Of a stretch of 64,000 bases of DNA, positions 3,287-58,224 are shown one piece after another. The notes beneath the pieces were generated by a model. The model was not told the DNA's origin and did not search any database. It saw nothing but the letters and a program-made list of their open reading frames with translations. The position numbers and the translations under genes are program-made. Numbering within the stretch: the first letter of the stretch is position 1; each line of letters begins with the position of its first letter. The DNA is from Thermomicrobium sp. 4228-Ro (GTDB lineage Bacteria; Chloroflexota; Chloroflexia; Thermomicrobiales; Thermomicrobiaceae): contig NZ_JAPFQM010000001.1 in NCBI RefSeq assembly GCF_026241205.1, forward strand, positions 62,001-126,000, written 5' to 3'.

Positions 3287-3386
3287 GGCGAGGGCGGATC
3301 GGGCCCGGTGGCCTGCACGGTCTTCAAAACCGGTGGGCGGGGTGACGAGCCTCGCCGGTGGGTTCGACTCCCATGCGCCCTCGCCA
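3287..3386 (+). tRNA. selC: tRNA-Sec (anticodon TCA)
   Basis: Selenocysteine tRNA with the bacterial 8+5 architecture. The acceptor stem is GGCGAGGG/CCCTCGCC (8 bp) and the T stem is 5 bp around TTCGACT. There is an extended D stem (GGGCC/GGCCT) with a 4-base loop, a loop containing TCA in the order CTTCAAA, a long variable arm (3330-3355), and an encoded CCA end. The host therefore probably makes selenoproteins. The last 73 bp are shared with attR, so the 3' two-thirds now present were brought in by the phage and restore a functional gene. Confidence 0.95.
3314..3386 (+). repeat. attL: 73-bp core within tRNA-Sec
   Basis: Exact copy of 58152-58224. It begins two bases before the anticodon arm (TGCACGG) and ends with the encoded CCA. 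Identity stops on both sides (CC versus AG before, GGG versus AGA after), which defines the core edges. The integrase gene starts 70 bp further right. Confidence 0.95.
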
Positions 3387-3456: not shown

Positions 3457-4632
3457 ATGGGCACAAACCAGCAGGAGCAGGCGGCCTCAACGGTGTCCAT
3501 CACTGGTGGGAGCAGGCAGCACCTCCCTCCTGGGGTGCGGCAGAAGGGGAACCGGTACGAGGGGCGCGTCAAGGTCAATGGTAAGCAGTACACAGTTTCC
3601 GGGGCGACACCTGAGGAGGCGTACCTTGCCCTCCAGCAGTTGAAGGCGAGGTTGAACCAACGATTCCGAAAAGAATCGGCAACTGATCACCGGTTCTGTG
3701 AGGAACCGGTGCATGGTCGAGGTTGGCAGCCGTGTGAGCCACTCACCCTGGAGCAGCTGCTGGAGCAGTGGATGCGCACTCATACCGAGTGGAAGCCACG
3801 CACCCGCCACGATTACCAGGAACTCGCGGAGCGCTGGGTGTTGCCCCTCCTGGGTAGCCGCTCCCTCTCGGATCTGCAGCCGAGACAGATCGAGGAGCTG
3901 CTTGCGTACATGCCCACGCGGCAGGCAGCCAAGGTTTATGCCATGCTGAAGGCAGCTCTCAATGCAGGTTACCGCTGGGGCTTGATCGAGGAGAACCTCA
4001 TGGAGCGTGTATCTCCGCCGCGCTACAGGACCCCGAGGAAAGCCCTGCCGCCATTGGAGCAGGTGGCGCGGGCACTCGCAGAGAACCGCCACCACCCCTG
4101 GTGGCCCTGGTTCGCCCTCGCTGTCTCCACCGGTATGCGGCCTGGGGAGCAAGCTGCCCTCAGATGGGAGGACTGGTCGCCGGAGGAGAACGTGCTCTGG
4201 GTGCGGCGCAGTGGACAGTACATCGATGGTACCTGGGTCGAGACGCCACCCAAGACGTATGCCGGAGACCGGCGGATCACCCTGCCCACGCCAGCGCAGG
4301 TAGCCCTCCAGGCCCAGCGAGAACGGGTACCAGAGGGTATCTCCCTCGTGTTCCCCAGCCGCACCGGGAAGCCCTACTCGGCTTGGGGCATCAATGATGG
4401 CCTCAAACGGTTCTGCCGCGAGTCCGGGCTTCCTCCCCTCACCCCGCACCAGCTCCGCCACTACCATGCATCCATCCTCGTCCAGCAAGGACTCCCGCTC
4501 ACCCTTATCTCCCGCCGCCTGGGGCACGCCTCGCCAGAGGTCACGGCACGCATCTACGCCCACTGGCTCGGAGCCGATGACCGCGCCGCCGCTCAGGCTA
4601 TCGATGCCACCTTTCCCCCGCTCCCGACATAG
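3457..4632 (+). CDS. int: Prophage tyrosine integrase
   Basis: A 391-residue site-specific recombinase that would catalyse integration and excision at the tRNA-Sec core. There is an N-terminal arm-binding (AP2-like) segment at about 25-60 (RYEGRVKVNGKQY), a core-binding SAM-like domain at about 94-180, and a catalytic domain with R228 (TGMRPGE), K266, H331 and R334 (HQLRHYH), H357 (LGHAS) and Y367. All active-site residues are present. Start at 3457 follows GAGGGGG. Residues about 68-88 are encoded by two perfect DNA hairpins (3661-3678 and 3688-3711), an unusual feature described in the findings. The location beside attL matches its job. Confidence 0.95.
   Translation: MGTNQQEQAASTVSITGGSRQHLPPGVRQKGNRYEGRVKVNGKQYTVSGATPEEAYLALQQLKARLNQRFRKESATDHRFCEEPVHGRGWQPCEPLTLEQLLEQWMRTHTEWKPRTRHDYQELAERWVLPLLGSRSLSDLQPRQIEELLAYMPTRQAAKVYAMLKAALNAGYRWGLIEENLMERVSPPRYRTPRKALPPLEQVARALAENRHHPWWPWFALAVSTGMRPGEQAALRWEDWSPEENVLWVRRSGQYIDGTWVETPPKTYAGDRRITLPTPAQVALQAQRERVPEGISLVFPSRTGKPYSAWGINDGLKRFCRESGLPPLTPHQLRHYHASILVQQGLPLTLISRRLGHASPEVTARIYAHWLGADDRAAAQAIDATFPPLPT
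3661..3711 (+). repeat. Two adjacent hairpins inside the int coding sequence
   Basis: CGATTC/GAATCG (3661-3666 with 3673-3678) and CACCGGTTC/GAACCGGTG (3688-3696 with 3703-3711) are perfect inverted repeats spaced by GCAACTGAT. The second starts TCACCGG, like the hairpin repeats at the right end of the prophage (57775-58149). They encode a charged linker between the arm-binding and core-binding domains, a place tolerant of insertion. Confidence 0.55.
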
Positions 4633-5072: not shown

Positions 5073-5223
5073 GGTACCAGAAGGCAAGAGCGACCCGACG
5101 GGGCCGCCAGGAACCTTAACAAGCGAGACAGAAACCTCCGGGTGCTGCGACAGCATCCGGAGACCCTGGAACCGCCGCTGGCTCGCGTGGTACCACACGG
5201 TACCAGCAGCCAGCGACGTGGGA

Positions 5224-24523: not shown

Positions 24524-27500
24524 CTAACGCTGCGTCGCGTACCAGTAGGACTCCGGGCTCCGGCTCACTCCGAGAGGTCGCTGCCGCACCCACTCGAAGT
24601 AGCGCCGCAACTCGGGGTCACTCTCGATGACCTGCTCCTGCACTCCCGGCGGCAGGAGCAGCAACGCTTGTACCTTGGCCACCAGCTGCTCCGGCCCCGG
24701 CTTCCAGGAGAGCGGCGCATAGGCGGCACCGACCCACCCCTGCCGAGCCAGCTCGCTCAGGGTGCCCCGCGGTAGCTCTCCGGTCTCCGGGAGCTGTGCC
24801 CGCTCCTCCCGGATGCGTCGCTCCGTCTCGGGGAGGAACTTCACCGGTACCGGGAGCGTCATCCCCACCAGCTCCTGCCCCAGCAACTGCCGACGGACAT
24901 CGTTCCAGGCGCGCTGGAAGATGGGGTTGGTCGGATCGTTCAGGGCCGCCAGGTAGGCTGGATCGGCAGCTCTGCCGGTATCCTCCACCGACAGTTCCAG
25001 GACCCGCTTCTTGACGAGATAGTCCGTGTAGGCAGAACCGGTGAGCGTCTCCGGCTGGCCGCGGAGCCTCCGGATCCCCTCGCGGATCGGTTGCTCCACG
25101 TCCAGACCCGTGGTCTGCGCCACCAGGCCCGAGTGTCGCAGCATCCGCATCGGCTCCCAGTCCTCGCCCAGCGCTCCCGAGACCCCTAGCGGAATCTCCG
25201 CCCAGGGCGCGAGACCCAAGCCGATCCGCGAGGCTTGCGCCTGCAAGCGCGCCAGGAGCGGCGCGTCGTCGGGAACGTACCGGTACTTGAGCTGGTCGGC
25301 GATGGAGAGCGCGACCATGGGATTGGCATACGCGGTTCCCGGCCCGAAGAGCCAGCCCAGCAGCGGTACCGGCATGGTATCGGTGAACCGTCCCGGCAAT
25401 CCCAGGCGCTTCCGCTCATCCTCGGCGATCTGGTGGTAGCTCTCCCAGGCCCGCAGAAGCCAGGGGTGCTGCCCCAGGGTCTCGAGATAGAACGGAATGT
25501 TGCGGGTGGCCCAGAAGTGGAACGGTGCCCAGGCGCGAACTCCCAACCACCTCTCGATGTTCCTCTCGTCGCCGTAGTCGAAGAAGAGGCGTCGCGCTAG
25601 CTCCTCGCCGCGGCTGGAGGCCTGCGCCTGCACCCGGCTCCAGGCCGCTGCCAGCTCCGCGGCCTGCTCCGGGGTACCGCCGACCCGCCGCACCGCTTCC
25701 TCGAGCTGCCGCACCGAGAAGGTCACCCCGTGCTCGGTGGCATCGAGCATCCGGAGGAGACGGTTGCCGCGCTGGTTCCCCAGCGTCTGGCGCACCAGTC
25801 CATCGAAAGCTGGTCTCGCCTCCCGGAGGTTGCGCAGGGTTTCGGTGAGCCAGGCAGCGCTGCGGAAGCTCGACTCCACCGCCTGCGCCATACGCCGGTT
25901 GAACTGCACCAGCTTCTCGGCACCGGCACCGAGCCGCCGCGAGAACCGCCCCAGCATCGTCCCCAGCGCCGTCTCCGCTTCCGGAGAGGCGAACTCCTCC
26001 CAGACGGTGGTCTGCGGCCTCCAGAGCACCGAATCCGGGACCGGGATGCCCAGTCGCTCCGCGACGGTGAACGCGCTGCGCCCTACCGCCGGGTTGATCC
26101 CGTACAGCGCTGCCTTCACCGTCGAGTCGAGGATATTCTGCAGGTGGTACCGCGGGGTGAGCAGCGCCTGCTCGCGCCAGGCCCGCAGCGGGAGCATCTG
26201 CGCGATCCGGTTGAGAGCGCGCACTACCGCTGGGTCCTTGCCGACCCCGAGCTTGCGCGCCATCTCGTCGGCGTAGCTCTCGATGAGCGCCTCCCGGCGC
26301 GTCTCGCGGAGAGTGCGCTCCAGCGTGCCCTCGGCGACCTCGTCGGGATCCACGCCCACCATCTCGAGGAAGTTGTCGATAGCTCGGCGCTGGTTCTCGT
26401 CGGCGAACCGTCTCGCCTCGACGACGTCGCGGAGCGTCGCTGTCGGAGCGGTGAGATCCGGTGCCAGTGGCTCCCGTTCCCGCAGGCGTTGTGCGATGTC
26501 TTCCAGCGCCCTCCGGGCCTCCTGGAAGCTCTGCTCCAGCTTTTGGACGCGGGGCAGTGCACCGGCCTCGCGCAGCACCCGCACCAGCTCGTCGGGCAAG
26601 CTGCTCCCGTACCAGCTGCGCGCTAGCTCCCCCTGCACGTTGCCGCGGAAACGCCGGGTGCGTGGGAGCAAGCGGTCCAGGAGTCGCTGCGCTACCGGGA
26701 AGCGGACTCCGAAGGCTGCCCAGGTATCGCCGACCTCGCGGAGCAGGGCTGCTGCCTGGTTGCGTGCCTCCCCCGGTGTCCGGGCCCGGAGCGCCTGCAC
26801 GACGCGAGGACGCAGGTGCGGCAGCCAGAGCGCTGCTGCCGCCAGCGGCTGGTTCTCGTTCCCGAAGGTCCTGCCCAGTACTTCCGCCAGCGTCTCGAGG
26901 TGCGTATCCGGCACTCGCTCCTCGGCAGCGATCTGCGAGAGGACCTCGCGGAGGTCCTCCACCTGGAGTGGACGGACCGTCGGACCGGGCTTCTTCGCTA
27001 CTAGACGGGCCACCTCGCCGGTAGTCTCGTCGGTGACCTCCTGCGCCAGCTGGTTGCGGAAGCGGGCTTTGACGACGAGACCCGTGTCGGGGCCGAGGAC
27101 GCCAGCCTTCTGGAGCAGCCACTCGAGGTGCCCGAGTTCGCGCTGGGAGAGGCTCCGCAACTTCCCGTCTGGCCCTACCCGCCCCAGGATCTGCTCGATA
27201 CCCGGGCCCCACTCGTTGCCGGAGAGGACGTAACGCACCGCCTTGTCGAAGAGTGCACCCTTCATGCGTGGATTGAAGTCGAGGGGACCCTTCCCCTGCG
27301 CGTCGAAGAGGCGGCGTCCACCCACCACGGGATTCGGATCACCAGTCTCGTAGACGAGGCGGCGCGTCTTGCGGATCTCCCGCAGCGTATTCCGGATCTC
27401 CTCCTCGCTGCGAGGACGGACCTCCTCCCAGATCTCCTGTCGCTGCCGCTGCTGCTCCAGCTCCCGCTGAGCGCGCTGGATGGACTCGCGGGCCGCTGTC

Positions 27501-30500
27501 TCCGCTCCCTCGAGCTGCTCCGGCGTCGCCGGGACCGCCGTTCCCGGCTCTACCGTGAAATCCTTGGGCCAGGTCCCGTCGTCCAGCCGCACCGAGAATT
27601 TGACGACACCCTCGGGAGTGTCGACCTCGGTGAAGTACAACCGCTCCGGTCCCTGGATCGAGGTCTCCCCGGTAGCCTGCACCACGTGCCCTCGATAGGG
27701 TCCGCTGGTGTAGACCAGCCCCTTGCGCCCTACCAGCACCGACTCCTGGTCGTACTTGGCACCCAGTTCCAGCGCATCCCGTTCCCGCATCCCCGGGACC
27801 AGGAACGAGTGCTCGACGACGCCCTCCTCCGAGTAGCGCCCTCGCACCGGGATCGGCTCGTAACCCCGGCTCCGCAGGTCCTCGAGGAGCTGCTGGCGAC
27901 GCTCTAGGAGTGCCTCCTCCGGCAGCCCCGTCTTGTCGGAGGTCAGGACCACGTAGTCTCCGCTCTGCAAGAGTTCGCGGAGCCGCTTCGGTACGGGAGC
28001 AGCGGGGAGCGAGAGGTCCTGCAACAGCTCCCGCGCCACCTCCGGCGTCAGCGACTCGCGGGGGAGACCGCGCCGGTAGGCGACCTCGGCGACGCGCCGG
28101 TAGCGCTCCAGTGTCCCGCGCAGCGGCTCCGGGACCTCGCCGGTAGCCAGGAGCTTCTCGAACCCTCGCGCAAACGCCTCCTCCTGCGGTGCGACGTTCT
28201 CGGCGAAGATACCCGCTCCTCGCGAGGCGTACCGGAGCAAGTGCGCCAGCTCATGCGGCAACGTCGTGATATCGGCTCGCGGAGCCAGGTAGACCACCGG
28301 TCCCTCCGGCGTCAGCTCCAGGTACCCACGCACCCGCTGGAGCGCCTGGTAGAGTCGCGGGTAGAGGGCATCGATGATGGCCGCTGCATCGTCGTTCCGG
28401 AGGACCCCGCGTTGCGCGACGCGAGCTAGCGTCTCGCGGATCTGCGAATCCCGCGTGGCGATGTCGCTGGGCATCCAGAGGTCCCATCTCGACAGGACCT
28501 TCTGGATCCCGCTGCGGTCACCCTGGAGCAGTGCCCGCACCACCTCGCCCAGACCCCGTTTCACCCCCTCTCCCTCGATGCGGATGATCTGCCACAACCC
28601 CGCTTGCAGCGCCGCCAGGTTCGGGTAGAGCTTGGACAGCACCGGGTCGCGCTTGACGTGCCGCCAGAGTTCGCGCAGGATGACCCGCTCCGAGACGGCC
28701 CGGATGGGAGAGGCTGCCTTCTCGGCCTCGGCGACTGCCTCCTCGTAGGGGACACCGGAGAGGAGCGCGATGTCGCGACGGACCCAGCGGTCCAGCGCTG
28801 CCGCCTCGATCTCCTGCTCGGCGCGCTTGATGTAGTCGAGGACCTCCTCCTCCGGCACCCCGGCTCGCCGCATCGCTACCGCGTTGTCGAAGATGTCCGC
28901 GTAGCGGTCCACGACCCAGGTGTAGTTCATGAGCTTGTCGAGGTAGGGCGACGGTTGCCCGGGCTTGGGGACCAGTCGCCCCAGGTCCGGTGCCCTCCTG
29001 CCCAGCGGATCGGCGAAATTCGTGACATCCGCGAAGGCGCTGTCCGGCAAGAGGCCCGGGAAACCCAGCAAGAGGAAACGCCGGAACTCGTCGAAACCGG
29101 TCTGCAGCATCCCTGCCGGGTGACGTCCCTCGGAGAGCTGGTCCAGCCAGCCCGCGACGGCACGGAGATTGAGGAGCGGGTTCGCGCCCTTGCCACCGGC
29201 TGCCCACGCCGCCAGCGCGAAGTCGCGGACATCGCGGCTCTCCAGGAGATGCCGCACTAGCTTCGAGGCCTCCTCGGGAACCAGGTAGCCGTCCTGGTCC
29301 ACGCGGGTGAGGTCGATACCTAGCCGCTGCGCCAGCCCTGGATCCACCCGGTCTACCCGCGTGATCCCCAGCACCCGCGCCGCATCCAGGAGCGGGTTCA
29401 CCGGTTGCTCCGGGATGACGAACTTGGTCACCCCGGTCAGACGGTTGACGGAACGCTTCTTCGGTGGGCGGTAGGGCACCTCCCCGATGCGCGCCATCGC
29501 CTCGCGGAAGACGGGTTCCGGTATCGCCTCGGTAGACCGGAACCGGTATCCCATCTCCTTGAGGACCTCGTTGAGGCGCTTGGCTTCAGCCTCGGAGAGG
29601 TAGACGGCCCGACGGTAAGCGGGATCCACGTTGCTCGGGTCCGCCAACCGCTGGATCGCTTCCTCGGGCAGGCCCTCTCCTCGCGGGAAGAGCCGCGAAA
29701 ACCAGGCACCCGCATCCCGATACCAGGCACCGGCCTCCTTGGCGAGCTTCTCGCCCATCGCTGCAGAACCGGCCCGGAGACGCTCCAGCCAGCGCTCCAC
29801 CGCATCGGGTGGGTGACTGAGGTGCTGCAGCGCTGTCGCCACCAGCTCCTCGTCGGGATGTTCCGGGACGTAGTTCGGATCCTCCAGCATCTTCCGCGTG
29901 ACCTCTTCCACTGTCTGGAAGAGCTTAGAGGCACCGCGCTGCGTCTCCTCGAAGGTAGGGCGCACCTTCATCATCGCGTAGACCTCGTCGAGGTCTTTGA
30001 ACTTCTCGGGATTCTGCGCGAAGATGCCCACCGCTACCGAGTCGAGGATGCGGTGCAGCGCCTCGCGAGCCGGAGCCGGGAACTCCCGCGTGAGCAAGGT
30101 GTCGTCCAGCTCCAGGTGCACGCGCATCCGCTCCGATGGACGCAGTGTGATGCGGTTCCCCTCGCGCACCTCTTGGAGCAACCCGCGTTCCAGGAGTTCC
30201 CGCTTCACCTCGATGAGCGGTTCCCTTGCCTCGGGGCGCAGCGGGGCCTCCCGCGAGAGCGCATCCCAAGCCCGCGTCAGGCTCACGCTGTCGACGTTGC
30301 GGATGAGATCGCGCACCCGTTCCCTCGGTTGGCCGATGAGGCGAGTCGCCCACTCCTCCCGCGCTAGACGCGCCACGTCTCCTTCCGGTGCCAGGAGGTC
30401 GGGTACGCCACGCTGCTCCGCCTCCTCCAGTGCGCGCCGGAACAGGTTCACGCTCTCGCGGAGCTTAGCTGCAGCCGACTTCTGGAACAGCGGCTTCCCG

Positions 30501-31174
30501 GTGATCCGTTCCAGGACCCGAGCCCCGCGGCGGAGACCAGCCAAGGGAACCGTCACCGGCAGCACCTGCACGCGTCCCAGCAACTCGTCGGTAGCCGTGG
30601 CGACGTCGAAAGCCTTGGCGAGGGCCGGTGAGGACTCCAAGAGACGCGCCACCTTCGGCACCTTGCCGAGCTTACCGACCAGTCCCACGCCCACCAGGTT
30701 CATCGGGTCGAGGAGGATCTCCGAGGCGAGTTTGAGCCAGGGGTGCCCCTCCATGGCGATGTTCCAGGCCTGGGTGTAGCTCTCGGCCTCGCGCACCCGC
30801 GGATCCGCCGAGATCTGCTTGACGTACCAACCGAGAGCGGGGCGCGTGACGAACTTGTTGCCGACGTCGAGGATCCAGCCCGCCGCCGAGAGCGCAGCCT
30901 CCAGGGGATTCTTTCCAGACTGCTCCGCTTGCACGCTGGCCGCGGAAGCTGCTGGTGGCGTTCCTAGCGGTAAAACCGGGTTTACCGGAGCGCTACCGGC
31001 ACCCATCGGCGAGACCGGTGCAGCGGGTCTCGGCGCGACGAAGCTCGGCAGCCTCGGTGCCGACGGTTGCAGGCGCGTCACCGGCGGAGCTGGCTCTTCC
31101 CCACCTGGCTCGCTGGCCCCACCGCGCACCTGCGAGAGAGCCTCCTGGAAGAGGCGACGTTCCAGTTCCCCCAT
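24524..31174 (-). CDS. Giant (2,216-residue) polyvalent virion protein with metallopeptidase motif
   Basis: Start at 31174 (MGELERRLFQEAL, GGAGG upstream). Proline-rich N terminus (about 20-90), then long helical regions. A zincin-type HELAH motif at about residues 974-978 (TTLPHELAHLLRYAS) has a downstream glutamate-rich helix. A KFSVRLDDGTW strand domain and another very long helical region run to the C terminus. Size, multidomain make-up and an embedded protease match phage polyvalent proteins, which are packaged and injected. In podoviruses such proteins sit between portal and capsid genes, as here. Which domains are active on entry cannot be told by eye. Confidence 0.75.
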   Translation of the reverse strand: MGELERRLFQEALSQVRGGASEPGGEEPAPPVTRLQPSAPRLPSFVAPRPAAPVSPMGAGSAPVNPVLPLGTPPAASAASVQAEQSGKNPLEAALSAAGWILDVGNKFVTRPALGWYVKQISADPRVREAESYTQAWNIAMEGHPWLKLASEILLDPMNLVGVGLVGKLGKVPKVARLLESSPALAKAFDVATATDELLGRVQVLPVTVPLAGLRRGARVLERITGKPLFQKSAAAKLRESVNLFRRALEEAEQRGVPDLLAPEGDVARLAREEWATRLIGQPRERVRDLIRNVDSVSLTRAWDALSREAPLRPEAREPLIEVKRELLERGLLQEVREGNRITLRPSERMRVHLELDDTLLTREFPAPAREALHRILDSVAVGIFAQNPEKFKDLDEVYAMMKVRPTFEETQRGASKLFQTVEEVTRKMLEDPNYVPEHPDEELVATALQHLSHPPDAVERWLERLRAGSAAMGEKLAKEAGAWYRDAGAWFSRLFPRGEGLPEEAIQRLADPSNVDPAYRRAVYLSEAEAKRLNEVLKEMGYRFRSTEAIPEPVFREAMARIGEVPYRPPKKRSVNRLTGVTKFVIPEQPVNPLLDAARVLGITRVDRVDPGLAQRLGIDLTRVDQDGYLVPEEASKLVRHLLESRDVRDFALAAWAAGGKGANPLLNLRAVAGWLDQLSEGRHPAGMLQTGFDEFRRFLLLGFPGLLPDSAFADVTNFADPLGRRAPDLGRLVPKPGQPSPYLDKLMNYTWVVDRYADIFDNAVAMRRAGVPEEEVLDYIKRAEQEIEAAALDRWVRRDIALLSGVPYEEAVAEAEKAASPIRAVSERVILRELWRHVKRDPVLSKLYPNLAALQAGLWQIIRIEGEGVKRGLGEVVRALLQGDRSGIQKVLSRWDLWMPSDIATRDSQIRETLARVAQRGVLRNDDAAAIIDALYPRLYQALQRVRGYLELTPEGPVVYLAPRADITTLPHELAHLLRYASRGAGIFAENVAPQEEAFARGFEKLLATGEVPEPLRGTLERYRRVAEVAYRRGLPRESLTPEVARELLQDLSLPAAPVPKRLRELLQSGDYVVLTSDKTGLPEEALLERRQQLLEDLRSRGYEPIPVRGRYSEEGVVEHSFLVPGMRERDALELGAKYDQESVLVGRKGLVYTSGPYRGHVVQATGETSIQGPERLYFTEVDTPEGVVKFSVRLDDGTWPKDFTVEPGTAVPATPEQLEGAETAARESIQRAQRELEQQRQRQEIWEEVRPRSEEEIRNTLREIRKTRRLVYETGDPNPVVGGRRLFDAQGKGPLDFNPRMKGALFDKAVRYVLSGNEWGPGIEQILGRVGPDGKLRSLSQRELGHLEWLLQKAGVLGPDTGLVVKARFRNQLAQEVTDETTGEVARLVAKKPGPTVRPLQVEDLREVLSQIAAEERVPDTHLETLAEVLGRTFGNENQPLAAAALWLPHLRPRVVQALRARTPGEARNQAAALLREVGDTWAAFGVRFPVAQRLLDRLLPRTRRFRGNVQGELARSWYGSSLPDELVRVLREAGALPRVQKLEQSFQEARRALEDIAQRLREREPLAPDLTAPTATLRDVVEARRFADENQRRAIDNFLEMVGVDPDEVAEGTLERTLRETRREALIESYADEMARKLGVGKDPAVVRALNRIAQMLPLRAWREQALLTPRYHLQNILDSTVKAALYGINPAVGRSAFTVAERLGIPVPDSVLWRPQTTVWEEFASPEAETALGTMLGRFSRRLGAGAEKLVQFNRRMAQAVESSFRSAAWLTETLRNLREARPAFDGLVRQTLGNQRGNRLLRMLDATEHGVTFSVRQLEEAVRRVGGTPEQAAELAAAWSRVQAQASSRGEELARRLFFDYGDERNIERWLGVRAWAPFHFWATRNIPFYLETLGQHPWLLRAWESYHQIAEDERKRLGLPGRFTDTMPVPLLGWLFGPGTAYANPMVALSIADQLKYRYVPDDAPLLARLQAQASRIGLGLAPWAEIPLGVSGALGEDWEPMRMLRHSGLVAQTTGLDVEQPIREGIRRLRGQPETLTGSAYTDYLVKKRVLELSVEDTGRAADPAYLAALNDPTNPIFQRAWNDVRRQLLGQELVGMTLPVPVKFLPETERRIREERAQLPETGELPRGTLSELARQGWVGAAYAPLSWKPGPEQLVAKVQALLLLPPGVQEQVIESDPELRRYFEWVRQRPLGVSRSPESYWYATQR

Positions 31175-31205
31175 CGCCCCTCCTTCCGTTTTCGTTAGCG
31201 TCGGA

Positions 31206-32369
31206 TCAGAACATGAGGTAGTTCCGCGGGTCGATGATCTTCCCGCTCTGGTCCCGCATCTCCACGTGGACATGCGGACCCGTCGAGTATCCGGTGCTGC
31301 CCGAGAGACCGAGGAAGGCTCCGGCATCCACGCGCTGCCCGGGGCGAACCGCTACCGAGGAGAGGTGCCCGAGGATCAGCACCTTGCCGTCATCCAGCTT
31401 GATGGTCACGGAGTTGCCGTAGCCACCGTTCCAGCCCGCTTGCACCACGGTCCCCCGGAAGGGGCTGTACAGGCGCGTGCCGCTGGGCGCTCCGATATCG
31501 ATGCCGGTGTGGTACCCGGAGCTGTACATCGACGGGTTGTAGTTCGCGTATTCCTGCGTGATGGGGAACCGTGCACCACCGAAGATCGACCACCCGCTGC
31601 CCGGTACCACCTTGCCACCGGCTTGCTCGAGCTGCTGGAGTTTCGCCAGCGTGTTGCGGAACTTGTCGACGTAGTCGTAACCCGAGGTCCCGATGGCGTC
31701 GCGGGCACCCGTGACATTCCCGCTGGCGTCGATGGCCCCGAAGTAGGCCGCGGCGGCTTTATCCCAGGATCCGTAGCGCCGGTACAGCTCCGAGAGGAGA
31801 TCCGCTGCCGTGAAGATGTTGACCTTCGGGTCCCACAGGTCACCGCCGTACTTGGCCGCTCTCCCGGCATGATAGTTCGGCATGATCTGCATGAGGCCCA
31901 CGGCTCCCTGAGGCGACCTCGCCTTGGCGTTGCCGCCGCTCTCGATGGCCATGATGGCACCCAGGACCTGCCAGGGTACCCCGAACTGCCGCTCCGCCTC
32001 CTGGAGGAGCGGTTTCCACTGCAGGACACCGCCGATATCGGCACCGTACTCGGCAGCACCCGACGGAAGCTTGTTCAGGGCGGGATTCTTCTCGGCTGCA
32101 GCCGTCAGCAGCGCTTGCCGGAGCTGATCGTCTGGCCGCTTCCGGATCCCGTAGGCGAGGTCGTAGGTGATCGCGGACCGCGACACCGGTGCCAGGAAAC
32201 TGCGGATCCCGTATGCCGCATCGTACCGCATGAGTGGGATCCGCGAGAGCGGTAGCAACGGCAACACGTGGATGCGATGAGGAACTCCCGAAGGACCCAT
32301 CGGAAACAGGGAGTTCGCACCCTCTTCCCTGGTCAGGAGGACCGGACCAGCGAGGTCCTGGAACAACAT
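31206..32369 (-). CDS. Virion-associated lysin: lytic transglycosylase plus M23 endopeptidase
   Basis: 387 residues. An SLT transglycosylase domain (about 115-240) has catalytic E143 in AIESGGN and GLMQIMP at 159-165. An M23 zinc endopeptidase domain (about 270-385) has H287, D291, H335 and HVH (366-368). The N terminus holds two short repeats of Y-D-x-A-Y-G-I-R. It probably opens peptidoglycan during genome entry rather than at lysis, since it lies among virion genes and a separate endolysin exists. Confidence 0.9.
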   Translation of the reverse strand: MLFQDLAGPVLLTREEGANSLFPMGPSGVPHRIHVLPLLPLSRIPLMRYDAAYGIRSFLAPVSRSAITYDLAYGIRKRPDDQLRQALLTAAAEKNPALNKLPSGAAEYGADIGGVLQWKPLLQEAERQFGVPWQVLGAIMAIESGGNAKARSPQGAVGLMQIMPNYHAGRAAKYGGDLWDPKVNIFTAADLLSELYRRYGSWDKAAAAYFGAIDASGNVTGARDAIGTSGYDYVDKFRNTLAKLQQLEQAGGKVVPGSGWSIFGGARFPITQEYANYNPSMYSSGYHTGIDIGAPSGTRLYSPFRGTVVQAGWNGGYGNSVTIKLDDGKVLILGHLSSVAVRPGQRVDAGAFLGLSGSTGYSTGPHVHVEMRDQSGKIIDPRNYLMF

Positions 32370-40497: not shown

Positions 40498-40534
40498 CAG
40501 CTCCCTCCGTTCCCGTATCGTCGCCTACGAGAGG

Positions 40535-40606
40535 CAGCCGGGGCAGGATTCGAACCTGCGTCGCAGGGGGCAACAGCCCCTCGCTCTACCCTCGAGCTAC
40601 CCGGCT
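40535..40606 (-). tRNA. Phage-encoded tRNA-Asn (anticodon GTT)
   Basis: 72 nt on the - strand. Acceptor AGCCGGG/CCCGGCT, T8-A9, D stem GCTC/GAGC, anticodon stem AGGGG/CCCCT with loop CTGTTGC (anticodon GTT), T arm GCAGG-TTCGAAT-CCTGC, discriminator G, CCA not encoded. All stems are perfect, so probably functional. It lies between virion genes and would be transcribed with them or from its own promoter. Confidence 0.93.
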
Positions 40607-46780: not shown

Positions 46781-47760
46781 CGCTGTCGATGCCCAGGGCT
46801 CCTGCCGGAGCCCTGGTGGGGGAGAGGGGGAATACTGCCGGGAATCCTGGTGCTACCTCGGTAGCCTGGATACCAGTGGCTACCGTGGTGGGCTCCTCGG
46901 TAACCGGAGGATACCGGAGAAGCGCTTTAGCGCTTCGGGAAAAGAGAAACGGTTGCTTCCTGCTGCTGGCCCCTATAAGGAACAGGATCCCTAGGTACCA
47001 GGATTCCTGGTAGCAGCTACAGGATACCTGGGAGCTACCATGGATCCTGGATCCCAGAGATTCCATGGGATCCCTGGTAGCAGCTGCAGGATACCTGGGA
47101 GCTACCAGGAACCCAGGATTCCAGGTGGCAGCTTCAGGAAACCTGGTAACTGATGATTCTCCGGTTACCTGGTAGCTCCCAGGTATCCAGGATCCCTGGT
47201 AGCTCCTCTGGGATCCGGGATTCCTAGGAGCTACCTGGTAACCACCGTTTCCTCGAGGAGCTTAAAGCTCCCTTAGGCAGCTACCAGGAATCCTGGATCC
47301 CTGGTAGCCTCTCTGGGATCCAGGTACCTGGTAACCCTGGTTTCCTGGAGGAGCTTAAAGCTCCCCCAGGTAGCTACCAGGCAGCTCCAGGGTACCTGGT
47401 AGCTACCTGGTAACCCTGGTTCCCTTTAGGGGCTTAAAGCCCCGTTAGGCGGCTTCCAGGTTCCCGGTGCTACCTGGTAGCCTCAGTTTCCTACGGGAGC
47501 TGGAGACTCTCTGGTGCAGCTACCAGGTAGCGAGCAGCTACCTGGATACCTGAAGGCGCTTCTCGCGCCTCGAGATAACTTCCAGGATGCTTCCAGGGTG
47601 TGCCTCGGAGATACCCAGGAGCCATCAGGTAGACAACCAAAGTGTAGCCAGGTATTTCCGGTTCGGGTCCAGGATTCCTGCAGCTACCAGAGTACCCAGG
47701 TAGCGAGCAGCTACCTGGTAGCTGCTGGTTCCCTGAGAGATTCGACACCCCTCGAGGTGG
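46781..47760. repeat. Tandem hairpin-repeat array
   Basis: About 1 kb made of CCAGG/CCTGG, GGATCC, GGTACC and GGTAGCTACC words. At least four imperfect tandem units of about 58 bp, each TACCTGG ... hairpin ... CTACCAGG, start at about 47231, 47324, 47403 and 47471, with a fifth at about 47537. Unit hairpins are GGAGCTTAAAGCTCC (two copies), GGGGCTTAAAGCCCC, and AGGCGC-TTCTC-GCGCCT, i.e. both arms change together. GGGCTCC-TGCC-GGAGCCC (46797-46814) and AAGCGCT/AGCGCTT (46920-46935) are further hairpins. A long + frame through it is repeat-derived and not a protein. Replication origin or large structured RNA are the main options. Confidence 0.85.
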
Positions 47761-57336: not shown

Positions 57337-57774
57337 GGGAGCGGTGAGATGGTTCCGGTTGGGGAAGAGTGGGGTCGGGCTCAGGAGGCGGGTTCGCTAC
57401 GGTGAGGCGGATCAGGATCAGGTTCGGCTGAAGTGATGCGTCGGCAGACGTGGAGGCGAATCGACGCTAGCGGAGGTATCGGCTGCGGGTGTTCCCCGAT
57501 GAGGGGCCCGGGTCGTGAGTGGTCGCGGGGTAGTGTCAGGATGGCAAAGGTCGGGGGAGTTGATAAATCGGCGGAGTGAGGACTGCCCCCGGCCACGGAG
57601 CCGGCCCAGGAAAGGAGCGGGGGTAGGGGTGGGGGGTCGGAAGCTCAGACGGCGCTGGCCTCGCTTGTGGCGCAGGAAGCGGTGCCTCAAACGGCGGCGG
57701 CCTCGTCCACCTTCACCCATCAGAGGGCAGCGACGCGGTACGCGCTGTCAAAACTCAGGTAAGCAACGACGAGT
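57337..57774. other. Non-coding region after the replication module
   Basis: No credible gene; short frames look random. G-rich on the + strand (GGGGGTAGGGGTGGGGGG around 57610-57640). Leads into the hairpin-repeat cluster. Confidence 0.5.
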
Positions 57775-58149
57775 CCCCGGTTGCGCCAGCAACCGTTGAT
57801 GCAGGGGGAGAGGGAGCTGGGTGGCAAGTCACCGGCTCCTTACGGAGCCGTTGAGGCGAGCAGGCTGGCTGAGCTGGAGCTGGCAGCGAGGCGATAGCAT
57901 GCGTGCTATGGATGGCGCTAGCGAGGGGTTGGAGGGAGAGGCAGCTCGCCAAGTCACCGAATCCTTACGGATTCGTTGAGATGCTGGCAGACCGGTGGCG
58001 GCGCTATACTGTGGGTGCCGGTTGGATGACTGAGCGCTGGGGAGCGAGGGGGAAGGAGACCCGAAGGTGGGAAACCGCGTGGCAGGCACCAAGTCACCGG
58101 CTCCATCAGGAGCCGTTGACGAGTCACCGTCTCCTCCCGGAGACGTTGA
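57772..58149 (+). repeat. Five covarying hairpin repeats at the prophage right end
   Basis: Unit: AGTCACCG-xx-TCC, four-base loop, GGA-xx-CGTTGA. Stems: CGGTTGC/GCAACCG (57778-57795), CGGCTCC/GGAGCCG (57833-57850), CGAATCC/GGATTCG (57958-57975), CGGCTCC/GGAGCCG (58098-58115) and CGTCTCC/GGAGACG (58128-58145). Each stem is a perfect 7 bp while inner pairs vary, so both arms changed together. The last ends 6 bp before the attR core. Spacing is irregular (55, 125, 140, 30 bp). Function unknown: attachment-arm sites or RNA hairpins. Confidence 0.85.
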
Positions 58150-58151
58150 AG

Positions 58152-58224
58152 TGCACGGTCTTCAAAACCGGTGGGCGGGGTGACGAGCCTCGCCGGTGGG
58201 TTCGACTCCCATGCGCCCTCGCCA
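58152..58224 (+). repeat. attR: 73-bp core, 3' fragment of tRNA-Sec
   Basis: Exact copy of 3314-3386 including the TCA anticodon, variable arm, T arm and CCA. The 5' acceptor and D arm are absent, so it is not a functional tRNA. It marks the right boundary with the chromosome. Confidence 0.95.

Follow-up and report, generated by a model that had tools for sequence, protein, structure and literature searches.

Our analysis indicates that the five hairpin repeats lying beside the attachment site of a Thermomicrobium prophage are probably copies of a REP-like mobile mini-palindrome of 30 nt, carried by temperate phages that integrate at the tRNA-Sec gene of this heat-loving genus. That the repeats are mobile units is very likely, while the further proposal, movement of the folded strand through an enzyme in trans, could equally well be right or wrong. 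Short mobile palindromes have been described from the chromosomes of bacteria and from mitochondria, and transposase-less kinds are among them. Here a single 30-nt hairpin is the whole of the inserted unit, it resides in a phage of ~55 kb, and close relatives of that phage show both empty and filled sites. A small temperate phage offers a setting for identifying both the moving form and the enzyme.

The prophage and its hairpin repeats

The window, by which we mean the whole 64,000-nt stretch of Thermomicrobium DNA that was analysed, contains a prophage of ~55 kb bounded by an intact tRNA-Sec gene and a partial copy of that gene. Its tailed-phage gene set includes a terminase, a major head protein, a tail fibre, a DNA polymerase, a primase and an exonuclease. 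The five copies lie in register at 57770-58149 and abut attR, as the initial annotation had stated. The relatives compared were those of Bacterium HR28 (g6) and Thermomicrobium sp. SKW109 (g1) together with G061, a related 54-kb phage from viral_contigs that carries units; the comparison rests on four phages, of which g1 is represented by one end only. The features and sites concerned are listed below in window coordinates, except for the last, with the flank bases that match when the two flanks of an empty site are joined.

3290-3386, plus strand: intact tRNA-Sec gene on the attL side; bases 3314-3386 recur at attR
3457-4632, plus strand: tyrosine integrase gene, downstream of tRNA-Sec; the g6 and G061 versions hold an in-frame unit at about window position 3518
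57770-57799, plus strand: unit W1, which starts CGAGTCCCC; precise 30-nt insertion, empty in g6, G061 and g1 (23/24 flank bases each)
57825-57854, plus strand: unit W2; precise 30-nt insertion, empty in g6 (22/24) and in G061 and g1 (23/24)
57897-57898: site S4, empty in the window (23/24); 30-nt unit in g6 (58435), G061 and g1
57939-57940: site S5, empty in the window (22/24); 29-nt unit in G061 (53545) and g1, pair of 29 and 30 nt in g6
57950-57979, plus strand: unit W3; precise 30-nt insertion, empty in g6 (24/24) and in G061 and g1 (23/24)
58074-58077: site of a second palindrome family, empty in the window; 27-nt palindrome in g6, G061 and g1
58090-58119, plus strand: unit W4, first member of the array adjoining the att core
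58120-58149, plus strand: unit W5, second member of the array; ends 2 bases short of the repeated att sequence
58152-58224, plus strand: attR, where 73 bp from the 3′ part of tRNA-Sec are repeated
g6 5140-5169, minus strand: site S9, empty in G061 (24/24)

Fold and covariation of the unit

Each unit of the window is 30 nt long and reads C[A/G]AG, followed by TCA, C, seven paired bases, a 4-nt loop, the seven pairing bases, T and TGA. The hairpin therefore reaches the final base of the unit and is preceded by 5′-CRAG. The perfect 7-bp stem and four-base loop originally described are present in all five copies. The limits then given to the unit need revision, since the true 30-nt unit begins two bases before AGTCACC, a motif that is found in four copies and reads AGTCCCC in copy 1. 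The fold also extends beyond the seven pairs: in four of the five window units an outer 3 bp (TCA/TGA) forms beyond a C.T mismatch, giving a hairpin of 3+7 bp, the exception being W1, where the outer part is TCC. Folding of the five units as single-stranded DNA gives this 3+7 bp hairpin with z values between -2.97 and -6.02. When the relatives are included, units start with CAAG, CGAG or TAAG, finish with TGA or TGG, and are 30 nt long, or 29 nt where the loop is shorter.

The stem changes among the copies had been called compensatory, and this description holds in a set of 18 distinct units (the five of the window and 13 from relatives, from four related phages in all). The ten pairs form in 96.1% of the 180 cells of this set, and two-sided changes are seen in four of the ten and total 14 cells, a count that the kinship of the units inflates. 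The covariation score, inflated likewise by the relatedness of the units, stands at 0.237; 500 shuffles had a mean of 0.077 and none of them reached it, and slid structures gave scores of at most 0.066. Even the outermost pair switches on both sides, from T-A to C-G in three units, and the mismatch at the C.T position is retained in 16 of the 18. Pairing that is kept together with a mismatch that is mostly kept suggests that the folded single strand is what is recognised. On this view, selection behind the paired changes would act on the hairpin's ability to move and not on a function at each site.

Distribution of the units

A chance origin of the five copies in the window is excluded. A covariance model recovers all of them at E values of 5.8e-11 to 3.5e-07 in a search of 210,025 bases, and when their complete genome is searched the range is 8.6e-10 to 5.1e-6, the units being part of the training set in both cases. 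A plain pattern search of the same 3.07 Mb genome returned the five units and one stemless chance match. Among 61 genomes searched by pattern, matches occurred in three, all of them Thermomicrobium, and the exact pattern found three stretches in genome_contigs, from two Thermomicrobium assemblies. The covariance search of 41 genomes gave a match in seven; the strong ones are confined to G000, G001 and G006 and all lie in prophage regions, so that no additional strong copies beyond the prophages were found in the host genomes searched. The single weak places in G003, G030, G031 and G039 (E 0.017 to 0.03) were taken as chance. The initial annotation had proposed such a covariance model as a check and had counted a lack of further copies and of covariation in homologous phages against its reading; both further copies and covariation were found in related phages.

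In viral_contigs, the pattern AGTCACCGN14CGTTGA matched 93 stretches, among which a check of the stem left one related contig (L102, which is the end of G061); the matches in L072 and L090 have 6/7 stem pairs. Another pattern search returned five stretches, two of them on the contig of L102 and the others in L297, L298 and L299. The flanks of these last three are alike among themselves and unlike the phage, and they were taken as conserved coding sequence. Other classes of repeat and RNA were also considered. An Rfam scan found only tRNA-Sec and one chance match (E 3.6), and so no known RNA family, while CRISPR repeats are ruled out by the irregular spacing and by the tandem units lacking spacers, both read from the sequence.

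Empty and filled sites

The att regions of the window, G061, g6 and g1 were aligned for presence and absence of units. In this alignment W3 is misplaced against S5, and empty sites were settled by joined flanks. At six sites (W1, W2, W3, S4, S5 and S9) one phage has a unit that another lacks, and 22-24 of 24 joined flank bases match. The insertions at W2 and W3 permit a single placing, and the ends of the unit are therefore fixed as CAAG...TTGA, with no target duplication at either site. W1, S4 and S9 agree with the same ends within two bases, and their placing is ambiguous by at most two bases. The insertion sites, when compared, have no obvious consensus or core sequence in common. From like ends at unrelated sites it follows that what is cut or copied is a defined molecule. 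The suggestion of "a copying mechanism that preserves palindromes", made when the repeats were first noticed, comes close to this outcome of the phage comparison.

Units also occur away from the att region. The phage of g6 has more copies at 4484, 4699 and 18244, the last of which is common to G061, and the integrase of g6 and G061 (400 vs 391 aa) contains a unit in frame near the 5′ end of its gene. Where g6 and G061 align in blocks of at least 85% identity, they are separated by nine gaps of at least 15 nt: three are units, three belong to the second palindrome family and three to neither. That many unrelated sites and both strands are involved makes gain likelier than precise loss, and we infer that the events were insertions, although, with no outgroup for the att region, any single event could be a gain or a loss.

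The repeats had also been likened to integrase arm sites. Stable hairpins clustered next to attP could indeed be fixed functional sites, either arm sites of an integrase or excisionase or hairpins that form in a phage transcript. However, their number, position and presence vary among phages with the same att site, and copies are found elsewhere too, including within the integrase gene. This variation in position and number means that the units are not integrase arm sites, and we consider any reading as fixed sites extremely improbable. The interpretation in the initial annotation is thus partly supported as a whole.

These phages also harbour insertions of a second palindrome family, ACGGATTG-loop-CAATCCGT, each step being 27 nt. 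Its places are 6307, 11037 and 58677 in G006 (C4), and others in G061, which is the only carrier of its exact pattern in viral_contigs. The 27-nt steps may include target duplications of 5-6 nt.

Turnover of the array beside attP

The tandem array adjoining the att core comprises two units in the window, three in G061 and four each in g6 and g1, always between the same two borders and head to tail on one strand. The series of units differs in every array, even among G061, g6 and g1, for which the identity around the array is 98.2-98.9% (G061/g6 553/563, G061/g1 557/563, g6/g1 557/563). The turnover of units next to attP outpaces base substitution. One unit of the g6 array is doubled exactly, which indicates that tandem duplication contributes to the growth of arrays, and part of this growth may be plain tandem duplication.

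The exact doubling in g6, and likewise some stems in g1 that are broken at one pair, would be expected if copying errors were responsible for the repeats as a whole. According to this explanation, template switching by the replisome at hairpins pastes copies and perfects palindromes, no dedicated enzyme is involved, and the compensatory changes arise without selection. Correction of this kind should, however, erase the mismatch at the C.T position that nearly all distinct units keep, and the constant 30-nt ends at unrelated sites are left unexplained. We therefore regard copying errors as an unlikely origin of the units.

The arrays border on the att core, which is also where turnover is most rapid, and this position draws attention to the phage tyrosine integrase. 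By analogy with integrons, this enzyme might recombine folded single-strand hairpins and leave stray copies by its own core. Integron attC sites are folded hairpins that stand in tandem arrays by the site of a tyrosine recombinase; the phage units differ from them in being only 30 nt long and in having no cassette genes and no recognised attC core-site consensus. The families listed for 88 ORFs of two prophages (25 out of 44 for Pfam, 25 out of 144 for PHROG) include no transposase, and the integrase is the sole recombinase among them. In addition, the related 54-kb phage G062, which has no PF00589 integrase, also has no unit that we could find. On the other side, no unit was found in two more distant relatives that do have an integrase, both of them fragments, and the insertion sites have no obvious common core sequence. 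Together, the pattern in G062 and the integrase-bearing relatives that lack units leave the integrase as a candidate and nothing further, and movement by the integrase in this integron-like manner seems improbable.

A possible mechanism of movement

The explanation that we prefer for these observations is a mobile mini-palindrome. Units would insert whole, on either strand, with no obvious site consensus and with no target duplication, and would accumulate head to tail beside the attP core. The moving form would be a folded single strand, either single-stranded DNA present during phage replication or RNA. Both ends of the unit would presumably be set by a recombinase acting in trans, as is proposed for REP elements with transposases of the IS200/IS605 type, and one candidate for this role is the tyrosine integrase that the phage itself encodes. 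IS200/IS605-type enzymes are thought to process REP hairpins as folded single strands. It is conceivable, if rather doubtful, that the 30-nt phage-borne element is moved as a folded strand by the tyrosine integrase or by some other unrecognised phage or host enzyme, which would make it a hairpin-recombination system outside integrons and IS200/IS605, with attP as its nursery. Like the phage units, the T4-type PeSL cassettes are stem-loops shuffled in phage genomes; the PeSL cassettes carry a promoter. A search of the literature on phage-borne mobile palindromes, with few subscription papers among those covered, found nothing similar.

Comparison with known palindromic elements

In the way it works, the phage hairpin resembles REP elements and the GC clusters of mitochondria. 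In the portions of PMC3733652 available, REPs and REPINs are described as hairpins of 20-40 nt that lie mostly between genes and sometimes within them, and whose stems have alternative complementary letters. The phage units are similar in size, in having a short hairpin with a covarying stem, and in their intergenic and occasional in-frame intragenic sites. According to the same portions, alternative complementary letters in the stem occur among the sub-families of most GTAG families; covarying stems are therefore unsurprising in mobile mini-palindromes. These portions also report a GTAG-23 REP family in Thermomicrobium roseum, whose members sit in small palindromes CCGSSCC(n3,4)GGSSCGG that, likened by description only, somewhat resemble the stem of the phage unit (PMC3733652, in part).

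These similarities raise the question of whether the units are REP elements proper, tagged with GTAG or CGTC and moved by a RAYT. The units, however, have no GTAG or CGTC tag at their end, as that tag is defined in the portions of PMC3733652 available. The Y1 transposase domain (Y1_Tnp, PF01797) was found in 0/7 Thermomicrobium genomes, with the control matched in 5/14 named genomes, and RAYT mobility by way of a host gene is rejected on this ground. There is also no chromosome-wide spread, the strong copies being limited to prophages in the genomes searched. Finally, the inserted unit is single at W1, W2, W3, S4 and S9 and the arrays run head to tail, whereas what is available of PMC3116915 has inverted doublets as the mobile form and singlets as defunct. 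We therefore place the phage hairpin outside the GTAG and CGTC families on account of tag, transposase and spread, and it is not a REPIN; that the units are REP elements proper is highly unlikely.

A REP-like but separate mini-palindrome can also be set beside other short elements. MITEs and other DDE derivatives differ from the phage units, which have no target-site duplication. Rickettsia palindromic elements (RPEs) are alike in inserting in frame in protein genes, as the unit does in the integrase of g6 and G061, and the CGTC-tagged RPE kind has no known transposase according to the portions of PMC3733652 available. In contrast to RPEs, the phage units are without the CGTC tag described there, lie in a phage and not in a chromosome, and have mostly intergenic copies. 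The GC clusters of yeast mitochondria (GC42) are short hairpins with presence/absence polymorphism, constrained pairing and no proven enzyme in the available part of PMC4478555; that part gives GC42 a putative AG target duplication, whereas the phage units show none, and the setting is an organelle instead of a phage. Sponge mitochondria have likewise undergone invasions by hairpin elements (RHE), which are again short, polymorphic in presence and absence and linked to no proven enzyme in the part of PMC2800124 available, and again organellar where the units are phage-borne.

Other features of the prophage

Several further features were noted. Within the integrase gene of the window, before its SAM-like domain, there are two weak, adjacent hairpins shaped like the unit, at 3657 and 3687 (3657-3716); from their sequence, they may be old in-frame insertions. 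The stretch at 57520-57709, upstream of the repeats, is strongly conserved, including in the integrase-less relative G062, and could correspond to an RNA, to an origin or to a small ORF on the minus strand. It was found in 3/7 Thermomicrobium genomes, the same three that have strong unit matches. The prophage also contains a tRNA-Asn gene at 40533-40606, in a stretch that is 86% identical in g6. The region 24524-31327 encodes a protein of 2267 aa with a DUF3293 match and, in the middle of the protein, a sub-threshold match to S-adenosylmethionine lyase; an anti-restriction role is possible. Several copies of a palindrome, CCAGGTAGC-GAGCA-GCTACCTGG, are present at 47166-47730 and resemble repressor operators.
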